Source: Kiritimatiellia bacterium (GTDB taxonomy: Bacteria > Verrucomicrobiota > Kiritimatiellia > RFP12 > UBA1067). Taken from it: a stretch of DNA of 32,356 bases. A program made the translations under genes and the position numbers. Positions 20,445 through 30,795 of this stretch are shown piece after piece; position 1 is the first letter of the stretch; each line of letters starts with the position of its first letter. Under the pieces are notes generated by a model, which was not told the DNA's origin, did no database searches, and saw only the letters and a program-made list of their open reading frames with translations. The stretch is from NCBI GenBank assembly GCA_017563185.1, contig JAFXIL010000056.1, forward strand, positions 1 through 32,356. Reading direction: 5' to 3'.

Positions 20445-22490
20445 ATGCCGGGGCGCGGCGCCATAGCGGCCTGCGCCGCGTTCGCGGCGGCACTGCTTGC
20501 GCTTGCTCCGTGGATATGCCGCACTGGATGCGGCAAGGCGCCGCCGCGCGAGATTTGCCTTGCGGGCAGAACGTTCGCGCCGGAGAGGGGGAGCTTCCCG
20601 GAGAGATTCGCGCAGTCGCCGTCGGCAAGAGGGACCATCCCCTGCATCGTCGTTGCGTCGCGTCCCGTATCCCGGCAGGTGCGCATGCGGGCGGAGGCCT
20701 TGGGCGCGCGCGTGACGGGGTTCGTTCCCGAGAACGCGCTGCTGGTGGAGGTGGACGATGCGGCGCTCGCGCGCATCGCTGGAGACCCGCTCTTCTACGC
20801 CGCCGTCGAGTTCATGCCGCGCGACAAGATGCCCGGCTCCCTGATGGAGGCCGACGTGGATTCCCTTGGGATTCGCGTTGTGCCGATGGCCGCGCAGGAC
20901 ATGGAGCGCATCGCGGCGTTCGTGGGTGCGAGCGGCGGCCGGGTGATGACAGATGCACCGGGAGCGGGCGGTGCGGTGAACGCAGTGGTTTCTCGTTCGC
21001 TCGTGGATGCTCTTGCCGCGCGGGGCGACGTGTGGAGAATCGAGTCTCTGCCGCATCCGCGCCTGATGAACGACGTGGCCGTCAATCCCGGTCTGATGAA
21101 CGTGCGCGGCGCGTGGGAGGTTCGCGGCCTCACTGGCGAAGGACAGGTCATATCCACTTCCGACTCCGGCATAGACACGGGCGACGTCGAGGCTTTGCAT
21201 CCCGACTTCTTCGGGCGCATCGCCTTGCTCGCGAATTCGGTTCCGGCGGCGTCTCTGGCCGACTACGAAGGGCATGGTACGCACACGGCGGGGTCGATCG
21301 TGGGCACCGGTTCATGTTCCGACGGGCGGATAAAGGGCGTGGCGCCGGGCGCAAGGCTCTATGCGACAAGCATAGCGCTGTACTCCGATCTCCATGTCCT
21401 CACGGACTTGAACTGGGAGACGTTCGCGGCCCTGTTCGATCCGGCCGGAGACTCCGCCGCGCGGATACATTCCGCCAGCTGGACGGTGGACTACTACGGC
21501 GCCTATTCGTCGCATGACGCGGAGATCGACCGCTACGTGTGGAACTCGCCGTGCTTTCTGCCCGTGATTGCCGCAGGCAACGATCGTGGAGACAGGGCGG
21601 TTAACATTCCCGCCTCGGCAAAGAACGTGGTCGCAGTCGGCGCCACGGAGAGTCTGCGCAGCGGCGAATCGCTGCCGTACGTTGGCAGCAGGGCCGACAA
21701 CGCCTCACAGGTGGCGGACTATGAGACGTATCCGGCATGGGGCTCGTCGAGGGGACCGACGACCGACGGGCGAATAAAGCCAGACCTGTGCGCGCCTGGC
21801 ACGTACATTCTCTCCACGTTCTCGTCTGTTACGGGCAGAGGCGACCTCGGGTATGGGTTGGACGGCGAGTCGTCAAGATACGCCTACAACTGCGGCACGT
21901 CGATGGCGTGTCCGCTAGTGGCAGGCGCGGCCGCGCTGGTGCGCCAGTGGCTCGTGGAAAGGCGAGGGATGGAACGCCCGTCGGCTGCGCTTGTGAAGGC
22001 GGTGCTTCTCGGCGGCGCGCATGACATGGTGGACGACGAGGGCGCGCAGTGCGGCGGCGAGGCACCGAACAACGTTCAGGGATGGGGACGCATCGACCTC
22101 GAGGAGACGCTGTACCCGTCGAACCGCGCCGTGCGTCTAGAGGACTGGATTCCGTTCTCGCTCGGCAGCGACTTCATCATCTCCCTTGAGACCACGAACA
22201 CGGCACCGCTCGAGGTCCAGCTAGTGTGGATCGACCATCCCGGCACCGAGGGCATGGGAAGGGCGATCGTGAACGACCTCGATCTCGTGGTCGCGAACGA
22301 GACTGCCGGCGGAACATGGCGCGGCAACGGCGTGAGGGAAGGCGACCGCGTGAACACCGTTGAAAGCGTGCGCATCGACTCCGCCGCGCCTGGACGCTAC
22401 GTCGTGCATGTGAAGGGTGTGACGGTGCCGTACGATTCCGAGGAGGGTGGCGCGGCGGCGTTGTACGTACGCGGCGCGTTCGCTGCCTAG
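20445..22490 (+). CDS. Exported subtilisin-family (S8) serine protease, ending at an in-frame TAG
   Basis: A 681-residue S8 protease. A hydrophobic N-terminal segment (about 5-22) should direct export. A propeptide-like region reaches about 210. The triad is D240 (STSDSGID), H277 (EGHGTHTAG) and S486 (CGTSMACP), with the oxyanion Asn in IAAGND. After the catalytic domain (to about 555) there is a beta-sandwich like that of KP-43/fervidolysin-type subtilases (SLETTNTAPLEVQLVW, VNDLDLVV, GRYVVHVKG). The ATG at 20445 is one base after the stop of the coiled-coil gene. The TAG at 22488-22490 is followed in the same frame by 243 more sense codons that look like the protein's own C-terminal extension (see next entry), so the gene may be interrupted. 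Confidence 0.88.
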   Translation: MPGRGAIAACAAFAAALLALAPWICRTGCGKAPPREICLAGRTFAPERGSFPERFAQSPSARGTIPCIVVASRPVSRQVRMRAEALGARVTGFVPENALLVEVDDAALARIAGDPLFYAAVEFMPRDKMPGSLMEADVDSLGIRVVPMAAQDMERIAAFVGASGGRVMTDAPGAGGAVNAVVSRSLVDALAARGDVWRIESLPHPRLMNDVAVNPGLMNVRGAWEVRGLTGEGQVISTSDSGIDTGDVEALHPDFFGRIALLANSVPAASLADYEGHGTHTAGSIVGTGSCSDGRIKGVAPGARLYATSIALYSDLHVLTDLNWETFAALFDPAGDSAARIHSASWTVDYYGAYSSHDAEIDRYVWNSPCFLPVIAAGNDRGDRAVNIPASAKNVVAVGATESLRSGESLPYVGSRADNASQVADYETYPAWGSSRGPTTDGRIKPDLCAPGTYILSTFSSVTGRGDLGYGLDGESSRYAYNCGTSMACPLVAGAAALVRQWLVERRGMERPSAALVKAVLLGGAHDMVDDEGAQCGGEAPNNVQGWGRIDLEETLYPSNRAVRLEDWIPFSLGSDFIISLETTNTAPLEVQLVWIDHPGTEGMGRAIVNDLDLVVANETAGGTWRGNGVREGDRVNTVESVRIDSAAPGRYVVHVKGVTVPYDSEEGGAAALYVRGAFAA

Positions 22491-23222
22491 CAGGAGGCGG
22501 AAGCGGCGAAGGGGATTGTGCCGCTTTGCAGGCGAACGCAGTTTCCGCTTCTTGGCGACGAGGGATATTCCGCGCTCTCATGGCATCCGTCCGGCAGCGT
22601 GGTGCGCGTGACGGTGCCTGCGGATCTGCCGCATGGAAGCGAGGTGCTTTCGGGGTTCGTGTGGACGGATGACGAAACGGGCGAGCAGACGACGCTTGGC
22701 GAGCAGCGCCTTGCCGAGGTGGAGGTGGCCGATCCGGGACGCGCGGGCGAACTGCGGCATGACGCGGCGGGGCGCATGGCCACTTCGTTCAACGTGGCTC
22801 TTGATGGCGCGCGCGACGTGCGCTTCCGGTACTATCCCGCTTCGGAGATGAACGCCTTGTCCGGTCTGCCGGAATGGTGGTGGCGGCGGAATCTCGCGGG
22901 CGCGACATCGGGCGGAGAAAAGGGGTGGGCGCATGGCGACGCCGACGGCGACGGAGCGTCAAACGCGGCTGAGTACGCGGCCGACACGGATCCGCTCGAC
23001 CCGCTTTCGGCGCTGCGCATCACGGCGTTCTCGCCCACGAACATCGTGTGGAGGGGCGGCTTGGAGGCAACGCAGGTTCTGGAGCGCGCAGAGAGCATTG
23101 GGCCCGGTGCGTCGTGGCATGGAGTCTTCACGAACAATCCGCCAACGAAGACGGAAGAAGCGCTTCCGCTCGCCCCCGCCGGCCCTCGCGCGTTCTACCG
23201 CCTTCGAGCACTCGGCCGCTGA
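22491..23222 (+). pseudogene. C-terminal extension of the subtilase beyond the TAG, or a separate small gene
   Basis: The frame of the subtilase continues after TAG for 243 codons to TGA at 23220. It encodes a beta-rich domain (VVRVTVPADLPHGS, GFVWTDDETGEQTTLG), then WWWRRN, a calcium-type DADGDG...ADTDPLDP segment and a tail ending PRAFYRLRALGR, all typical of secreted protein C-termini. It has no signal peptide of its own, as expected for a detached tail. A change of CAG to TAG would explain it. Alternatively AGGAGG (22492-22497) and AAGGGG (22509-22514) could serve a restart at GTG 22518 (234 residues). TAG ends other genes here (tkt, gspK, coiled coil), so it is a normal stop in this organism. 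Confidence 0.6.
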
Positions 23223-23971: not shown

Positions 23972-24000
23972 TTGACGGTTTCGCCGCCGTATTGTAAAAT
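23972..24000 (+). promoter_or_regulatory. Promoter of the frameshifted exported-protein gene
   Basis: TTGACG (23972-23977), a 17-nt spacer, TAAAAT (23995-24000). It leads to a ribosome site AAAGAAAGGG (about 24052-24061) and an ATG at 24068, so the expression signals of this broken gene are intact. Confidence 0.6.
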
Positions 24001-24067: not shown

Positions 24068-24390
24068 ATGGCAGTTTGTTCATTCAGGCGCATGGCGGCG
24101 GCGTTCATCACGGGCGTGGCCATGTTGTCCTCGCCCCTGCTCTTGGCGGATGCCGTATACACTCCGGCAGGCGAAAGCCGGGGCACGGCGTTGACCGTGG
24201 CTAAAGTCGAGGCAGTGGTAATCGACGGTGGTCAGGACGCGGTGGTCATGACGGGTTCGTCCGTCGCAGCCGACACGCTGATCGGCGTAGAGGGACTACT
24301 CGGGCAAGTTCAAGCTCGTTGTCCGGGACGGACGCTTGGCGCTAGCCAATGCCTCGCCCGGCGGCATGGCGATATTCCTGCGCTGATCTG
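24068..24390 (+). pseudogene. Frameshifted remnant of a small exported protein gene
   Basis: From ATG 24068 the frame gives a signal peptide (residues 1 to about 28, ending PLLLADA) and a mature start (VYTPAGESRGTALTVAKVEAVVIDGG), up to about GVEG. The frame then degrades into CPGRTLGASQCLARRHGD. In the +1 frame, starting at about 24290, the sequence reads DYSGKFKLVVRDGRLALANASPGGMAIFLR and stops at TGA. That is a natural beta-rich ending for an exported protein, so one frame shift near 24288-24291 joins the parts. The product would be about 107 residues, so large internal loss is also likely. The ATG has a good ribosome site and promoter. A sequencing error at this point is the alternative. 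Confidence 0.6.
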
Positions 24391-24443
24391 ACTCTACGCG
24401 GGAGAAAGAACATTTAGGTGACAATTCAGCGACGGCTTTCTGC

Positions 24444-24449
24444 TAGAAT
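24444..24449 (+). promoter_or_regulatory. Probable -10 of the beta-helix/VTC operon
   Basis: TAGAAT (24444-24449) preceded by TGC (extended -10). A weak -35 (GACAAT-like) lies about 18 nt upstream. The leader is about 20 nt and includes AAAGGA before the ATG at 24477. Confidence 0.45.
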
Positions 24450-24476: not shown

Positions 24477-26309
24477 ATGCAAATAACAGATCATGCCAGA
24501 TTGTCGGGCATCGCTATCTTGGCGCTCCTCTGCATCGCGGAGGTGCGAGGTGCCGTGTTGAACCTTTCTGGACCATACACTACGGACTATGACTACACCG
24601 CCACGGAGAACACCACGATCAATCTCAACGGCGTCACCTTCACTGACTGCTGCCTCAAGCTCCGCGGCGACAAGACGTTCACCATCAATCTCGTGGAGGG
24701 CACGCAGAACGTCTTCACGATGGACAACGACAACAAGGAGCTCATCAAGGCCACCAAGGACTCCAACATCGTCTTCACCGGCAGCGGATCGCTCGAGCTC
24801 ACCAGCACGAAGCGCATCACCGACAACAAGAAGCCGTCCGGGATACTGGTGTGCAACAACCTCACCGTCGAGGGCGGCGACATCAAGGTGACGTTCGACC
24901 AGAACAAGAGCGACACCTCGTGCATCTTCGTGAAGGGCAACTACCTGCAGACCGGCGGCAAGGTGAAGGTGGACATGGACAAGAAGAACTGCACGAACGA
25001 GTTCAGCGGCGTGCATCTCGACTCCTTCAACACCACGTTCACCATCTCCGGCGGCAAGTTCGTCGCCGAGATCGCCGGCACCAAGAGCCGGGCGATAGAC
25101 CTCAAGAGGTCGTCCAAGGCGACGTTCAGCAACTGCGAAGTCTCCGTCGAGTTCGAGGGCCCCCAGGGCCGCTTCGTGAACGGCGGTCTGCTCGTATTCG
25201 AGAGCGGCACGTACAGCTTCACCACAAACATCACGGCGAAGATGACAGAGGCGTACTACCCCACGGCCATAAGCGCGGTGAAGGCAGACTACTCCATCAC
25301 CGTGAACGGCGGCGACTTCGAGGCCGACCTGCCGCTTGCGGACAGCGAAGTGTTCACCAACGACAGCACCTACGGCACCTCCGTGAACATCGCCGGCGGC
25401 GAGTTCGACCTCGTGTCCGGAAACGACTGCATCCACTCCAACGGCAACATAGAGATCTCCGGCGGCAGGATACGCGGCGTCTCCGTGTTCGACGACGTGA
25501 TCGACGCGAACGGCAGCATGACGGTCTCGGGCGGCTCCATCCGGGCATGGGCCACCGCCTCGGGTACGCACGGCCTCGACGTGAACAAGGGCAGCAGCCT
25601 CAAGATAACGGGCGGCATGGTCGTGGCGACGGACGGAGTTGACGCGATAAAGCTGGGCTCGGGGTCTTCTGAGGTCGGCAAGACGTCGTTCACCCAGGCC
25701 ACGTACTACGGCACGGTCTCGGCGGACGATTATTCCGCCAGGTATCTCGTCCTCGACGGCGCGACGAACGGCGTTCCGTTCACCATCAAGACCAGGCTGC
25801 CCGACTTCCCTGCGGGAAGCAGCTTCAACCTGCTGGTGAGCGTGCCGGGCCGCTCCGCCTCCGTGCCGGAGCCCAAGACGGTGGCGGAGGCGTATGCCGA
25901 CGCGAACAGCCGCACGCCGATCGTGTTCGAGAAGAAGGCCACTGCGAGCGGCGGCGCGATAACCACGAAGGAGGGCGACGTGCTGGAGGTGCCCGCATAC
26001 TACGACATAGCTCCGGCCTCGGGGAAGTCCAAGGTGTTCACGCTCTCGCTCAACGGCAATGCCGCGCCGGAGTATTCCGACCTCGAGGCTGACGGCGTGG
26101 CGGCGATCGCGGTGGAGGAAGACACGGTGTACGTGGGCGTGCGCACGCTGTCCGGGCTCGTGTACAGGCTCGTCTCCGCAGGGGGGGTCTCGGCGGACGA
26201 CGAGTGGACCGAGCAGGGCGATCCGGTGGCGGGAACGGGTGCCGCCGAGCGCCTGCAGTGCGCGCGCGCGGCGGACCGGGCGTTCTACAAGGTGAGGGTG
26301 AGCGACTGA
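24477..26309 (+). CDS. Exported beta-helix carbohydrate-binding protein (DUF4353/Cthe_2159-like)
   Basis: A 610-residue exported protein with a signal peptide of about 26 residues (AILALLCIAEVRGA). Residues of about 40-420 form a right-handed beta-helix with units such as 'ISGGKF', 'VNGGDF', 'IAGGEF', 'ISGGRI', 'VSGGSI' and 'ITGGMV', about 20-30 residues apart. The order NDCIHSNGNIEISGG, DDVIDANGSMTVSGG, HGLDVNKGSSLKITGG is the signature of the Cthe_2159 (DUF4353) family, which binds cellulose and acidic sugars in the known member. The last 150 residues are beta-rich and end in DRAFYKVRVSD, like the RAFYRLRALGR tail at 23222. The ATG at 24477 follows AAAGGA. Its TGA overlaps the ATG of the VTC gene (TGATG), placing it at the head of the operon. 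Confidence 0.85.
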   Translation: MQITDHARLSGIAILALLCIAEVRGAVLNLSGPYTTDYDYTATENTTINLNGVTFTDCCLKLRGDKTFTINLVEGTQNVFTMDNDNKELIKATKDSNIVFTGSGSLELTSTKRITDNKKPSGILVCNNLTVEGGDIKVTFDQNKSDTSCIFVKGNYLQTGGKVKVDMDKKNCTNEFSGVHLDSFNTTFTISGGKFVAEIAGTKSRAIDLKRSSKATFSNCEVSVEFEGPQGRFVNGGLLVFESGTYSFTTNITAKMTEAYYPTAISAVKADYSITVNGGDFEADLPLADSEVFTNDSTYGTSVNIAGGEFDLVSGNDCIHSNGNIEISGGRIRGVSVFDDVIDANGSMTVSGGSIRAWATASGTHGLDVNKGSSLKITGGMVVATDGVDAIKLGSGSSEVGKTSFTQATYYGTVSADDYSARYLVLDGATNGVPFTIKTRLPDFPAGSSFNLLVSVPGRSASVPEPKTVAEAYADANSRTPIVFEKKATASGGAITTKEGDVLEVPAYYDIAPASGKSKVFTLSLNGNAAPEYSDLEADGVAAIAVEEDTVYVGVRTLSGLVYRLVSAGGVSADDEWTEQGDPVAGTGAAERLQCARAADRAFYKVRVSD

Positions 26310-27115
26310 TGGCTGCCGCGGCGGACATAGTAAACCGATACGAGGCGAAGTACGTCATTCCGCGTTCTCTCGTTGCCGAGATACGCGAATACGTGCGTCC
26401 GTTCTGCGAGCCGGATCCCCACACGAGCGGCGATCCGCCGGAATACAACATCACCACCCTCCAGCTGGAGACGCCGTCATACGCGCTCCACTACGCGAAG
26501 GAGGACGAGATGGACGCGCGCTTCAAGATGCGCGTCCGCACGTACGGCGAGATAGGCAACGCCCCTGTATTCGCCGAGATCAAGGCGAAGTTCCAGCGCA
26601 CCATTGTGAAGGCGCGCGCGTGTGTGCCGTTCGGCGCGTGGAACGAGGCGCTGATATACGGCTCGCGCATTCCGCCGATCTTCAAGAACGAGAGGCAGGA
26701 GATCGACTTCCTCAAGTTCCGCCGCGTGGTGTGGGAGACGGGGGCGCGTCCCGAGACGCTCGTTCGGTACACGCGCGAGTCGTACATCGGCGTGGTGGAC
26801 GACTATGTGCGCATAACGTTCGACAGGAAGCTCCAGTACCAGCGCACCGACTCGTGGACCGACTTCGGCCGAAGCGGCGTATGGCGCGGCATGGACTCGT
26901 GCACGGCGCAGGGCTTCGGCCTTCCGTATTCCGGCGTGGTGCTCGAGGTGAAGACGTACAACACCGTGCCCTCGTGGGTGCTGGAGCTCGTGAAGCGCTT
27001 CAACCTGTGCCGCAGGGGCAACTGCAAGTATTCAACGGCCATCTGGCGGGAAGGGGCCTTCGGCGGCCATCCCGGCACAAACTTCGCCCAGCAGGCGATG
27101 CTTTCGGCCATCTAG
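26309..27115 (+). CDS. VTC-domain (polyphosphate polymerase-type) protein
   Basis: A 268-residue protein of the VTC domain, part of the triphosphate-tunnel superfamily. Yeast Vtc4 uses this domain to make polyphosphate from ATP. The tunnel residues are readable: RYEAKY with R10 and K14 near the start, FKMRVRTYG with K73, R75 and R77, AEIKAKF with E90, K92 and K94, a central R-E-S-Y strand (TRESYIGVVDDYVRITFDRK), and VVLEVKTY with E213 and K215, the metal-binding Glu. No membrane segment is present, so it should be cytoplasmic, perhaps docked on the DUF4956 protein. The ATG at 26309 overlaps the preceding TGA by one base. No SPX domain or transmembrane part is fused. Activity is inferred from the family. 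Confidence 0.88.
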   Translation: MAAAADIVNRYEAKYVIPRSLVAEIREYVRPFCEPDPHTSGDPPEYNITTLQLETPSYALHYAKEDEMDARFKMRVRTYGEIGNAPVFAEIKAKFQRTIVKARACVPFGAWNEALIYGSRIPPIFKNERQEIDFLKFRRVVWETGARPETLVRYTRESYIGVVDDYVRITFDRKLQYQRTDSWTDFGRSGVWRGMDSCTAQGFGLPYSGVVLEVKTYNTVPSWVLELVKRFNLCRRGNCKYSTAIWREGAFGGHPGTNFAQQAMLSAI

Positions 27116-27133
27116 CGAAAGGATGCATTTGAA

Positions 27134-27835
27134 GTGAACACCGCAAACGAATATCTTGCCCAGTTTCTAGGCGGCGGCTCCACCGCGTTCTCGCCAACGA
27201 TCATCTTGGCGTCGATGGGGCTTGCGCTGCTGCTGGCCCTGCTATGCGCCGTGGTGTACCAGTTCACGTTCCGAGGCTTCACGTATTCGCGCACCTTCAT
27301 CCACTCGATGGTGCTGGGCTCCATCGTGACGTGCATGCTGATCATGGCGGTGGGCAGCAATCTGGCGCGCGGCCTCGGCATCCTCGGCACGCTCACCATC
27401 ATCCGGTTCCGCACGCCCGTGCGCGATCCGCGCGACGCGGTGTTCCTCTTCGCGTGCCTCGGGGCGGGGATCGCCTGCGGTGCCGGGGCGTATATGGTGG
27501 CGGTGTCGGGCAGTCTGTTCTTCGCGGTCACGGCCTTTCTGCTGCATGTGCTGCCGTTCGCGAGCAGACGCGACTACGAGGGAATGCTGCGCTTCTCGAT
27601 GAAGGTGGGCGACAAGGACGCCGAGGCCGAGCTGGAGTCCATTCTCGTGAAGTACTGCAGCTCCTTCTGCGTGCTTGGCGTGTGCGACGCCGTGCAAGGT
27701 GAGGAGGCGGAGTTCTCGTATCAGGTGAGGCTGCTAGATCCGTCATATCGCAAGGATCTGGTGGCGGCGCTGAAGAGCGCGGGGCACTTCGCCTCGCCTG
27801 TGCTGCTTCTGCAGAGGAGCACTGTTGAACTGTGA
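27134..27835 (+). CDS. DUF4956 polytopic membrane protein
   Basis: A 233-residue inner-membrane protein of the DUF4956 family. Four hydrophobic segments lie at about 22-44 (TIILASMGLALLLALLCAVV), 55-75, 102-118 and 122-141. The family signature GILGTLTIIRFRTPVRDPRD covers about residues 81-100. The soluble C-terminal third (about 148-233) has an ACT/MgtC-C-like alpha-beta pattern (MKVGDKDAEAELESILVKYC). DUF4956 genes are usual neighbours of VTC-domain genes in bacteria, and a role in the membrane export or anchoring of polyphosphate has been suggested from that context. The GTG at 27134 follows GAAAGGA (27117-27123), 18 nt after the VTC stop. The HlyD gene starts 10 nt after its TGA. Confidence 0.87.
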   Translation: MNTANEYLAQFLGGGSTAFSPTIILASMGLALLLALLCAVVYQFTFRGFTYSRTFIHSMVLGSIVTCMLIMAVGSNLARGLGILGTLTIIRFRTPVRDPRDAVFLFACLGAGIACGAGAYMVAVSGSLFFAVTAFLLHVLPFASRRDYEGMLRFSMKVGDKDAEAELESILVKYCSSFCVLGVCDAVQGEEAEFSYQVRLLDPSYRKDLVAALKSAGHFASPVLLLQRSTVEL

Positions 27836-27845
27836 GGTGCGTGTA

Positions 27846-29051
27846 ATGGAGAAGTCGTATAGACGTCCACGTCTTGGAAGGCCAATGCGCCAGCGTCTGC
27901 GCGCTTTCGTGCGCGTAGTGTGCGGCGCTGCGGTGATAGTGGCGGCGGCTGCAGTGCTGATGTGGCTTTTCGGGCGCGAGAGCGAAGTGCGCTTCCGCGG
28001 AATCGTTGATTCCGGCGCGGAGAACGTGGGGCCAGTGGAGGCGGCGCGCATCGTCTCTATCGAGGTGGAGCCGGGGCAGCGCGTGAAGGCGGGCGATGTG
28101 CTGGTGCGCTTCGATCCGGCTACGCTTCTTGCCGAGCAGGCGCTGAACGATGTGAAGATACGCGAATGCGAGCAGAACGAGGAGAAGCTTCGCGAGAACC
28201 TGCGCGAGGCAGCGAGAAGAGGCAGGCAGACGGTGCGCGAGGCGTCCGTGGCGCTTGAGGAGCGGCGGATGGAGCGCCTGCGCGAGCAGGCGGAGCTTGC
28301 GGCGCTTGACGCTGAGATCGCGCGGCTCAAGCCGCTCGTCGAGAAGAAGCTGGTGAGCGAGCTGGAGCTTACGTCGCTCAGGCCGAAGGCCGACGCGCTC
28401 AGGGGCACGGTGGGCGGCTACGAGCCGCTGCTGAAGGCCCTGGAGGAGCGCCTTCGCGAGGCGCAGGACGGCCTGAAGGAGCTTGAGCAGGAGATTGCCG
28501 CGTTCGAGGCGCGCGCGGCGTCCTCCACGAACGCGACTCTCCGCGCGGCGCTCAAGCGCTACGAGGATATCCATCGCGTCGATTCGTCGGTGCTGCGCGC
28601 TCTCTCCGACGGCGTCGTCTCGCAGGTGTTCCGCCGCGCGGGCGACATCGTGCCGGCGGGCGAGGCCATCGTGCGCCTCGCCTCCGCGCCTGATTCGCGC
28701 TTCGTCACTGGCATGCTGCCCGCGGACCATCTCGACGACGTCCACGCGGGCGACGAGCTTCTCATAAGCCGCGCAGTGCTTTCCGGCCTCGGCGCGCAGA
28801 GCCTTGTGGTCACCGGGCGCGTGGAGACTATCGACCCTGAAGTGCTCGACTTCTTCGATCCGATGAATCCCGCGCCCCGCGTGCCGGTGCGCGGGCGCAA
28901 GGTGCGCATCCGCCTCTCCGGCGACGCGGCGGCGTTCATCCCCGGCGAGTCTGTGCTGATCTCCGGCAAGGCCGGCGGCGAGGGCTTCGTGGAGCGTCTC
29001 GCGCACATCTTCAGCTCCACCAACCAGCCTGCAAAGGAGGTCGGCTCGTGA
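27846..29051 (+). CDS. HlyD/EmrA-type periplasmic adaptor protein
   Basis: A 401-residue membrane-fusion protein. It has a basic cytoplasmic start, one transmembrane helix at about 27-44 (ending VLMWLFG), a first lipoyl half-motif at about 70-95 (ARIVSIEVEPGQRVKAGDVLVRFDP), a long helical hairpin (about 96-240, rich in Glu/Arg/Leu), a second lipoyl half (SDGVVSQVFRRAGDIVPAGEAIVRL) at about 256-280, and a beta-barrel end. Such proteins link an inner-membrane pump to a TolC-type channel. Here neither an ABC nor an RND pump gene is present. The ATG at 27846 is chosen for GAGGTG at 6 nt; an in-frame TTG at 27825 lies inside the DUF4956 gene. Its TGA overlaps the next ATG. Confidence 0.88.
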   Translation: MEKSYRRPRLGRPMRQRLRAFVRVVCGAAVIVAAAAVLMWLFGRESEVRFRGIVDSGAENVGPVEAARIVSIEVEPGQRVKAGDVLVRFDPATLLAEQALNDVKIRECEQNEEKLRENLREAARRGRQTVREASVALEERRMERLREQAELAALDAEIARLKPLVEKKLVSELELTSLRPKADALRGTVGGYEPLLKALEERLREAQDGLKELEQEIAAFEARAASSTNATLRAALKRYEDIHRVDSSVLRALSDGVVSQVFRRAGDIVPAGEAIVRLASAPDSRFVTGMLPADHLDDVHAGDELLISRAVLSGLGAQSLVVTGRVETIDPEVLDFFDPMNPAPRVPVRGRKVRIRLSGDAAAFIPGESVLISGKAGGEGFVERLAHIFSSTNQPAKEVGS

Positions 29052-30469
29052 TGGCGCTGCGCATAGCCGCGCTTGCGTGCGTGGTTGCGCTTGCCGCAGC
29101 GATCCGGGCCGAGGCTCCGGCAGAGGCGCCCGTGTCATCCGCCCAGTCCGTTCCCGCCAGGCCGGCGGGCGGATGGAGCTGGGACGAGCTTGCGCGCCTT
29201 GCGGGCGAGCGCGCCGACAAGGCGAAGATAGAGTTCCTGAAGGCGGCCGCCCGCCGCCAGAAGCTCGACGCCGACCTCGCATGGAAGGATCCGCAGCTCC
29301 GCATCGGCCGCACGTGGGAGGACAGCTGGCAGCGCTCGCGCCACCGCTTTCCCGATATCCGCGAAAGGCCCGAGAACGGATCGGGCGACACCTATACGGC
29401 GACGCTGCGCCTCTACATCTCCAACCCCTTCGTGAACCACTATGTGCGCCGCGCGGGCGAGGCGTCGATACAGTCGCTAGAGGCGCGCGCCAAGGCCGAG
29501 CAGTACGCGATCTACTGCGAGGTGAAGTCGCTCTGCCTGGAGGAGGAGCGCCTCAAGCGCGAGCACGCGCGCCGCACGGAGGCGGAGACGCTGTGGACGC
29601 GCGTGCGCCAGTGCCTCGACAGGCGCATGAAGGAGGGCGTGGTGAAGTCCCCGCTCGACGCGGTGAAGGCCGAGATCGCGCGCGAGAGGGCGGCCGCCCG
29701 CGCCGAGGAGGCCGCGCAGGAACGCCGCCAGATACGCCGCGAGATAGCCTTCCTCGCCGGAATCCCGGAGCGCGAGCTCGCGATACGCTACACTCCGCCG
29801 GAGCCGCCGAGCACGAACGTTGCTTTCGCGGCGGCCCTCGCCGAGGTTGCCTTCGCGCGCCGTCCCGACCTCGTGGGCGCGCTCGCCGAGCTCGAGAGCG
29901 CCCGCGCAAACGTGGGCGCGGCCAAGGCGGCGCACGTGCCGTGGTTCGACTTCGTGGAGGGCTCGTACTCCCGCAGCTCCGGCAGGGAGCGCGACTGGGG
30001 GTCGTACAAGTATCTGGGCGTCGAATGGCCGGACCGCGGGCACAGGCGCGACCACGAGGACGACTGGCAGATACGCGCCGCGATCACGCTGCCGATATTC
30101 ACGTGGTTCGGCAGCTCGGTGAAGATGTCGCGTCTAGTCGAGGATGCCGCCGACGTGCGCGTGCAGGGGCTGCGCGCGGCGATCAGGAACGAGGTGGAGT
30201 GCGCCTTGGACGACTTCCGCGCCTCGGACCTGCGATATGCGCGCATCTCCAAGGACGGCATCGCCTTTCTCAAGAAGATGGAGACCCGCCTTTCCGAGTT
30301 CGCGGAGTCGGCCGCCGTGAAGCCTGACGATGTTTGCCGCGCGCAGATCGAGCTGCTCGACTACCGTTCCTTCAAGGACGAGGCCGAATTCGACTGGGTG
30401 GAGCGGATTCTCATGCTCGAGACTGTCTCTGGCGGTCCTCTCCCCTACAATGCCGCCACATCCAAGTGA
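29051..30469 (+). CDS. TolC-like outer-membrane efflux protein
   Basis: A 472-residue outer-membrane factor. The signal peptide covers residues 1 to about 21 (RIAALACVVALAAAIRAEA). WSWDELARLA at about 42-51 starts the first helical repeat. Long coiled-coil helices follow (AYKA-like EIARERAAARAEEAAQERRQIRREIAFLAGIPE), then the second repeat beginning near EVAFARRPDLVGALAELESARANVGAAKAAHVPWFDF, the pattern used by OEP/TolC proteins, where 'RPDL..A...L..A...V..A.A...P' is characteristic. The ATG at 29051 overlaps the HlyD TGA by one base and follows AAAGGAGG at 9 nt. It forms the outer channel for the adaptor upstream. No lipobox was seen. Confidence 0.85.
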   Translation: MALRIAALACVVALAAAIRAEAPAEAPVSSAQSVPARPAGGWSWDELARLAGERADKAKIEFLKAAARRQKLDADLAWKDPQLRIGRTWEDSWQRSRHRFPDIRERPENGSGDTYTATLRLYISNPFVNHYVRRAGEASIQSLEARAKAEQYAIYCEVKSLCLEEERLKREHARRTEAETLWTRVRQCLDRRMKEGVVKSPLDAVKAEIARERAAARAEEAAQERRQIRREIAFLAGIPERELAIRYTPPEPPSTNVAFAAALAEVAFARRPDLVGALAELESARANVGAAKAAHVPWFDFVEGSYSRSSGRERDWGSYKYLGVEWPDRGHRRDHEDDWQIRAAITLPIFTWFGSSVKMSRLVEDAADVRVQGLRAAIRNEVECALDDFRASDLRYARISKDGIAFLKKMETRLSEFAESAAVKPDDVCRAQIELLDYRSFKDEAEFDWVERILMLETVSGGPLPYNAATSK

Positions 30470-30505
30470 CGGCAGGTCGCCTTTTGATTTTTCGCGATTT
30501 TCCAC

Positions 30506-30541: not shown

Positions 30542-30795
30542 AGAAATTCATGGGGGCGCTTTCGGTTTCCCGGGGGTGCCTTCGGAAGTCGGCGCGAGCC
30601 GACGTTCTCTGGATGCGTTAGCGGGCGGTCATCGTAATTAACTAATTACGGCTCTTCTGCTGACAGACGAGGACACGCTTGAGGCGCGTGAAGGGGAACG
30701 AAGGCGAACGACGGCGTTTTTTAGGCGTGCGGAAACGTGCGCCGCCGCCGAAAGGCGTGGTGGCCAGGCGCGGGAATCCGTGCCTGGCTTCCGTT
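30542..30795 (+). ncRNA. Putative structured RNA or long 5' leader
   Basis: From the predicted start near 30542 the RNA would fold a perfect GTCGGC-GCGA-GCCGAC hairpin (30588-30603), a CGTAATTA/TAATTACG stem (30633-30640 and 30643-30650), and end at an 11-bp hairpin (30763-30788). It does not match tmRNA, RNase P RNA, SRP RNA or any riboswitch I recognise. No ribosome site or protein-like frame is found within it. Confidence 0.3.
30763..30795 (+). terminator. 11-bp hairpin before the HAD gene (terminator or attenuator)
   Basis: GCCAGGCGCGG (30763-30773), loop GAAT, CCGTGCCTGGC (30778-30788), with one G-U pair, then TTCCGTTTTCATTT. The T-tract is interrupted. It lies 35 nt before the ATG of the HAD gene, so it could end a small RNA or attenuate the downstream operon. 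Confidence 0.4.

Follow-up and report, generated by a model that had tools for sequence, protein, structure and literature searches.

We analysed a 32,356-nucleotide stretch of DNA (the window), contig JAFXIL010000056.1 of a Kiritimatiellae bacterium from gut or rumen, whose assembly comprises 3.2 Mb in 206 contigs. The window contains a block of five genes encoding, in order, a beta-helix protein of the Cthe_2159 family, a VTC-domain protein, a DUF4956 membrane protein, a HlyD-family periplasmic adaptor and a TolC/NodT-type outer-membrane factor (OMF). Our main finding is that the last four belong to an old, conserved module that recurs in two phyla of the Planctomycetes–Verrucomicrobia–Chlamydiae (PVC) group. 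We tentatively favour the view that VTC, DUF4956, HlyD and OMF would form one envelope-spanning machine that couples polymer synthesis to export, with polyphosphate passing through a DUF4956 channel. A shade more tentative is the broader proposal that export of polyphosphate, or of a related phosphate polymer, across the whole envelope is driven by synthesis without a pump and ends at an OMF or a phosphate-porin-like protein, in a system that would be widespread in the PVC group.

Linkage of HlyD and OMF with VTC and DUF4956 across relatives

The first evidence for a module comes from gene order. Nearly every VTC locus of same-family relatives has the order VTC–DUF4956–HlyD–OMF, with short gaps between the genes. 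When the HlyD alignment was scanned against 84,980 species, 23 strong loci were obtained (E 1e-37 or better), after which the matches drop sharply to E 1e-9. VTC and DUF4956 lie upstream in all 22 of the strong loci with upstream DNA present, the 23rd (L083) being cut by a contig end; VTC or DUF4956 is upstream of none of the 56 weaker HlyD loci. The named relatives of the window's HlyD are Kiritimatiellae-type assemblies, several of them from rumen or omasum.

Seen from the DUF4956 side, HlyD is encoded directly 3′ in 68 loci from the Verrucomicrobiota (including Kiritimatiellia) and the Planctomycetota. DUF4956 occurs in 75 of the 388 genomes of the Verrucomicrobiota set, where 105 of the genes could be tested, having more than 600 bp of downstream DNA. 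The gene directly 3′ of these was HlyD in 50 cases, at short gaps or overlaps, CotH in 25 and both in none. VTC lies directly upstream of DUF4956 in 49 of the 50 HlyD-type loci, and 36 of these loci have an OMF gene no further than 2.5 kb away, compared with 1 of the 55 other DUF4956 loci. These counts come from a non-random sample, the first 40 loci having been picked by kinship to the window, and from gene labels given by iterated profiles, Pfam-checked in a handful of cases. For the Planctomycetota, DUF4956 is found in 111 of 392 genomes and HlyD directly 3′ in 17 of the 60 neighbourhoods fetched; Pfam confirms HlyD in these loci, and OEP where examined. The Hyalangium DUF4956 gene (L261) has neither VTC nor HlyD as a direct neighbour.

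In a FastTree phylogeny of 161 DUF4956 proteins (a quick tree with some long branches, for which we hence claim neither the root nor the deep order), the HlyD-type and the CotH-type proteins each fall on one side of a single branch, with support of 97. Partner type requires 1 change on this tree, compared with 31 in shuffles, or 3 changes if all non-HlyD rows are scored as 'other'. The one-branch split indicates that DUF4956 and its association with HlyD were inherited together, so that HlyD is no chance neighbour.

Thus, the neighbourhood survey bears out the suggestion made in a preliminary description of this DNA that the HlyD/OMF pair belongs with VTC/DUF4956; in relatives the two pairs are not usually apart. 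The same description considered that the system might be undescribed. In the open literature that we searched (including for polyphosphate with HlyD and CotH, and for the VTC domain with MgtC), no description of the module was found and mentions of DUF4956 are confined to three papers. The system is not special to this bacterium, since it spans two PVC phyla.

The VTC protein as a probable polyphosphate polymerase

The Pfam matches of all five proteins exceed the curated cut-offs, that of the VTC domain scoring 93.5 bits against a cut-off of 23, while an NCBIfam scan gave no match for the VTC protein or the beta-helix protein. The VTC domain is all that Pfam finds in the 268-residue protein, which lacks both an SPX domain and membrane helices of the VTC type. 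The bacterial VTC profile matches yeast Vtc4 (3g3q, E 3.6e-14; 8i6v, E 1.5e-13), and the residues aligned to K200, R264, R266, K281, R361, R373 and E426 of the Vtc4 tunnel are invariant in 21 bacterial relatives. We take K200, K281, R361 and R373 to be catalytic residues of that tunnel. The equivalents of R264, R266 and E426 are R76, R78 and E214 (numbered from the codon at 26306, one ahead of the ATG), and correspond to the residues mutated in the Vtc4 of a cryo-EM construct (PMC9911596). As judged from its sequence, the VTC enzyme can probably make polyphosphate from ATP. It is encoded by the only VTC gene of the genome, in which PPK1 was not found.

DUF4956 as a candidate inner-membrane component

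The DUF4956 protein, which the preliminary description gave four helices, is predicted by its AlphaFold model (predicted local distance difference test, pLDDT, 80) to have five membrane helices and a folded C-terminal domain. This alpha/beta domain has an ACT/ferredoxin-like fold (NikR, Z 10.9, root-mean-square deviation 2.1 over 80 residues) and the MgtC C-terminal domains 2lqj and 7qa5 are among its Foldseek matches, in a comparison that covers the C-terminal domain only and says nothing on the membrane part. Alignment of DUF4956 with 20 MgtC proteins of relatives by hhalign gave 96.6% over 200 columns, which include the C-terminal domain; three control profiles gave 0.1%. The match to the Pfam MgtC family (PF02308), at 22.1 bits (E 2e-4), is below the 31.4-bit cut-off, and a sequence comparison with solved structures gave no match. 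DUF4956 may belong in an MgtC-like group and likely has a role in the module. Its residues R91-F92-R93 are present in 67 of 67 HlyD-type rows of the alignment and in nearly all other rows, and Y51, S52, G112 and G116 are common to the HlyD-type and porin-type proteins (the latter described below) and not typical of the CotH-type.

The model of the HlyD protein (AlphaFold2, pLDDT 77.5) has one membrane helix, a lipoyl domain, a long alpha-hairpin at residues ∼92–225, with arms of ∼75 and ∼54 residues, and a beta-barrel. EmrA is the best match both by sequence (PDB 4tko, E 1.4e-13) and by fold (Foldseek, 4tko, E 2.7e-18; also EmrAB-TolC, 8zar). The alignment shows that relatives of the OMF carry a lipobox, of which the cysteine is kept in the window's genus and the motif is blurred. 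In one relative (L041, G027:C69), two overlapping open reading frames (ORFs) take the place of the HlyD gene, owing to a frameshift or an assembly error.

An adaptor and an outer-membrane factor raise the question of a pump. The preliminary description had pointed out that no ABC or RND pump is encoded, and we found no ABC, RND or MFS pump in the window's block and no recurrent one in the 68 HlyD-type loci, where only 13 polytopic or ABC genes are scattered, at differing positions, within five same-strand genes. Of 56 ordinary HlyD loci, by comparison, 36 have a gene for a polytopic or ABC protein no more than two genes away. Since no other polytopic membrane protein recurs in the module, DUF4956 is the leading candidate for the component in the inner membrane; to this extent the earlier suggestion of such a role stands, although the channel function itself is a prediction. 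The description had also raised the matter of a pump encoded elsewhere in the genome. The one full-length RND pump, on contig C28, has its own OMF directly beside it (one further OMF is on C154); ABC exporters are considered with the objections below.

A proposed route across the envelope and its alternatives

In the machine that we propose, the cytoplasmic VTC enzyme would polymerise the gamma-phosphate of ATP into polyphosphate while sitting on an oligomer of the MgtC-like DUF4956. The invariant Arg-Phe-Arg, located where a DUF4956 membrane helix ends on the cytoplasmic side, would receive the polyanion, and DUF4956 would do the job of the Vtc1/3/4 membrane helices in yeast, whose VTC complex couples the making of polyphosphate to its passage through a basic channel (PMC9911596). 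Polymerisation, together with the outside-positive membrane potential, would drive the chain outward, which would explain the lack of an encoded ATPase or antiporter pump. An EmrA-like HlyD ring on DUF4956 would then dock to the TolC-type OMF, through which the chain would reach the surface. There it may be used or bound by secreted CotH kinases and, in the window's genus, by the beta-helix protein.

In another branch of DUF4956 (families f44/f46), a Porin_O_P gene lies directly 3′ of the VTC–DUF4956 pair in all eight loci examined (L163, L165, L166, L170, L172, L173, L175 and L177). Porin_O_P is, by name, the phosphate-selective porin family of Pfam, and the Pseudomonas porins OprP and OprO transport phosphate and pyrophosphate (PMC9769906). 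The presence of two unrelated outer-membrane routes on the same VTC–DUF4956 pair fits a product that leaves the cell. Yet another DUF4956 branch (L179, L316, L323, L326 and L327) has, directly 3′, a gene for a protein of 350–370 residues with one N-terminal membrane helix; weak TPR matches were seen in the three such proteins scanned (L179, L316 and L323).

Several points weigh against the proposed machine. The Porin_O_P members here are taken as putative phosphate porins by family name only, and CotH, the commonest other 3′ partner of DUF4956, is not a conduit. No member of the MgtC family is known to work as a polymer channel, and the single-chain model of DUF4956, which is of middling confidence, shows no evident pore. 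Fourteen of the 50 HlyD-type loci, some of them at contig ends, have no OMF within 2.5 kb, and most of those members outside the Kiritimatiellia that have a 360-residue HlyD lack it; the OMF may be shared or unneeded where it is absent. There may be ABC exporters elsewhere in the genome, outside the pump survey. Finally, the machine is proposed from its genes: product and complex are putative for every member, any structure is a model, and we infer that DUF4956 acts as a channel, that transport runs outward and that there is a link to CotH.

The CotH link points to a possible role of the product in surface phosphorylation, either as a downstream use of the exported chain or as a rival account of the whole module. 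In the latter, VTC–DUF4956 would supply a phosphate donor, either polyphosphate of short chain length or some other polyphosphorylated compound, to the outside of the inner membrane or to the cell surface. There it would serve secreted CotH-type kinases or the decoration of an exopolymer, and in diderms the HlyD–OMF pair would do no more than carry this delivery on across the outer membrane. A secreted kinase would presumably be without cytoplasmic ATP. Among the 55 DUF4956 genes without HlyD, 25 have CotH directly 3′, and CotH lies on the same strand within 6 kb in 11 of the 50 HlyD-type loci. The gene order in the congener L044 is beta-helix–CotH–VTC–DUF4956–HlyD–OMF, and in Gram-positives CotH, polyphosphate polymerase (PPP) and DUF4956 accompany Pel polysaccharide operons (PMC7112168). 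However, although CotH is found beside VTC–DUF4956 in L044 and several relatives, it is absent from the operon in the window, the 11 CotH matches of this genome being elsewhere; CotH and HlyD are together directly 3′ of DUF4956 in none of the 50 loci, and polyphosphate as a CotH donor is hypothetical. On balance we regard surface phosphorylation as an unlikely account of the module as a whole. Four loci (L034, L043, L092 and L100) encode very large CotH proteins (1550–1718 residues) on the far side of the VTC gene, besides the CotH after the OMF, and one large CotH that was scanned contains Lamin Tail Domains and InlB-type repeats.

The known roles of MgtC are regulatory, and in other bacteria one adaptor can serve more than one pump. 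The resemblance of DUF4956 to MgtC and the ABC genes beyond the survey could therefore be read in another way, in which DUF4956 is an MgtC-like regulator or an anchor for VTC, polyphosphate is stored inside the cell, and HlyD–OMF use a pump encoded elsewhere (ABC, MFS or RND) on an unrelated substrate, the genes being co-regulated and nothing more. This we consider somewhat less probable again, because the linkage has persisted across two phyla and a single branch of DUF4956, the HlyD subfamily was never found without VTC–DUF4956, no pump is a recurrent neighbour, and the replacement in a different branch is another outer-membrane protein, Porin_O_P.

The beta-helix gene lies upstream of VTC only in the congeners L040, L042 and L044, with a distant homologue near L200, and is a genus-level addition to the module. 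It is very improbable that the operon secretes this protein by a type I secretion-like HlyD–OMF route, as might be imagined from its gene being first in the operon and overlapping the VTC gene, since nearly all relatives, and those outside the genus, have the four core genes but not this one, and it is the fastest evolving of the five; type I secretion was rejected on account of its Sec-type signal peptide and the lack of an ABC protein. The earlier idea of the beta-helix protein as a passenger was accordingly dropped: as a genus-level addition with its own Sec signal it is unlikely cargo, and it looks more like a protein of the cell surface, which it may bind if it does not bind the product. 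Its C-terminal tail is of the type [FY][FY][KR][VLI] (AFYKVRVSD, AFYRLRALGR, RFYKLEV, RFFKLEI), which is also seen on the TSP3-repeat protein at 22518–23222 and on several CotH proteins of HlyD loci (tail-bearing relatives L032, L034, L041, L045 and L192), and was not seen on CotH encoded directly 3′ of DUF4956. The shared tail is possibly a surface-sorting signal.

The gene block and its surroundings

The preliminary coordinates of the five same-strand genes (24477–30469) were confirmed for all five ORFs (Table 1), as were the junctions between them, read from the sequence as TGATG at 26307–26311, gaps of 18 and 10 nucleotides, and TGATG at 29049–29053.

Table 1. Positions in the window of the five genes and of a possible promoter element
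Feature	Position	Strand	Basis
Possible extended -10 element, TGC-TAGAAT	24441..24449	+	Read from sequence; missed by consensus scan; weak
Cthe_2159-family beta-helix protein, 610 aa, Sec-type signal peptide, C-terminal tail AFYKVRVSD	24477..26309	+	Pfam PF14262 E 1.8e-11
VTC-domain protein, 268 aa, predicted cytoplasmic polyphosphate polymerase	26309..27115	+	Pfam VTC E 2e-26; Vtc4 profile match
DUF4956 membrane protein, 233 aa, MgtC-like	27134..27835	+	Pfam DUF4956 E 2.7e-10; AlphaFold2 model; hhalign to MgtC
HlyD-family periplasmic adaptor, 401 aa, EmrA-like	27846..29051	+	Pfam HlyD_3 E 9.1e-10; PDB 4tko match
TolC/NodT-type outer-membrane factor (OMF), 472 aa	29051..30469	+	Pfam OEP E 1.1e-15; NCBIfam outer_NodT E 1e-10

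The ratio of nonsynonymous to synonymous substitution rates (dN/dS, NG86), measured against the congener L044, is 0.39 for the beta-helix gene, 0.14 for VTC, 0.13 for DUF4956, 0.27 for HlyD and 0.31 for OMF. All five genes are thus under purifying selection, VTC and DUF4956 being the most and the beta-helix gene the least constrained, and the range of 0.13–0.39 indicates that they are real, selected genes.

The signals around the block are less distinct. A promoter said to be likely before 24444 is only plausible, as there is an extended -10-like site at this place but no well-spaced -35; a consensus scan gave no match near 24444, its sole match lying at 23972–24000, with 0.8 matches expected by chance. 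Terminator-like matches were found inside the block at 27428 (a weak one, with a 5-pair stem), just past the OMF stop at 30466–30480, and, stronger, at 30762, in a scan that is at chance level (4 found, 4.4 expected) and decides nothing on internal terminators. Rfam and tRNA scans of the window were empty. Just upstream of the operon, at 24068–24391, is an ORF for 107 amino acids with a signal-peptide-like start, perhaps a remnant of a longer gene for a secreted protein. Further upstream, a subtilase-family (S8) protein with a signal-peptide-like N-terminus is encoded at 20445–22490, followed by the TSP3-repeat protein.

Comparison with known systems

Polyphosphate kinase (PPK) is a cytoplasmic-facing enzyme and does not explain how bacteria could place polyphosphate outside the cell; the operon described here offers a concrete, testable route. 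The nearest parallel for the synthetic part is the yeast VTC complex Vtc1/3/4 (PMC9911596; 8i6v, 7ytj, 3g3q), which has a homologous catalytic tunnel domain, with the equivalents of R264, R266 and E426, and whose cytoplasmic synthesis beside a membrane protein with conserved basic residues would be expected here also. In contrast to yeast, there is no SPX domain and there are no VTC-type helices; the partner is DUF4956, the components are encoded by separate genes, and two envelope-spanning proteins are added in the setting of a bacterial envelope.

With EmrAB-TolC and other tripartite exporters (4tko, 8zar) the module shares an EmrA-like adaptor, with a single helix and a long hairpin, encoded beside a TolC/NodT-type OMF. 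It differs from them in that no MFS, ABC or RND pump gene recurs in the 68 loci, where DUF4956 stands in its place. If the proposed machine is correct, the HlyD–TolC architecture would extend to a case in which polymerisation itself may be the motor.

DUF4956 itself is like the MgtC/SapB family in the profile match over 200 columns and in the ACT/ferredoxin-like C-terminal fold, and unlike it in falling below the Pfam MgtC cut-off, in having its own motif (RFRTP...DPRD) and in being tied to VTC in nearly all HlyD-type loci. The set of CotH, polyphosphate polymerase and DUF4956 of Gram-positive Pel operons (PMC7112168) has in common with the module that VTC (PPP) adjoins DUF4956, and that CotH is present in some relatives. 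Here, however, HlyD and OMF follow directly downstream in a diderm, no Pel genes were seen nearby, and the operon is without CotH. The module is a variant, so far uncharacterised and conserved over a wide range, in which two machines of known kinds are joined.

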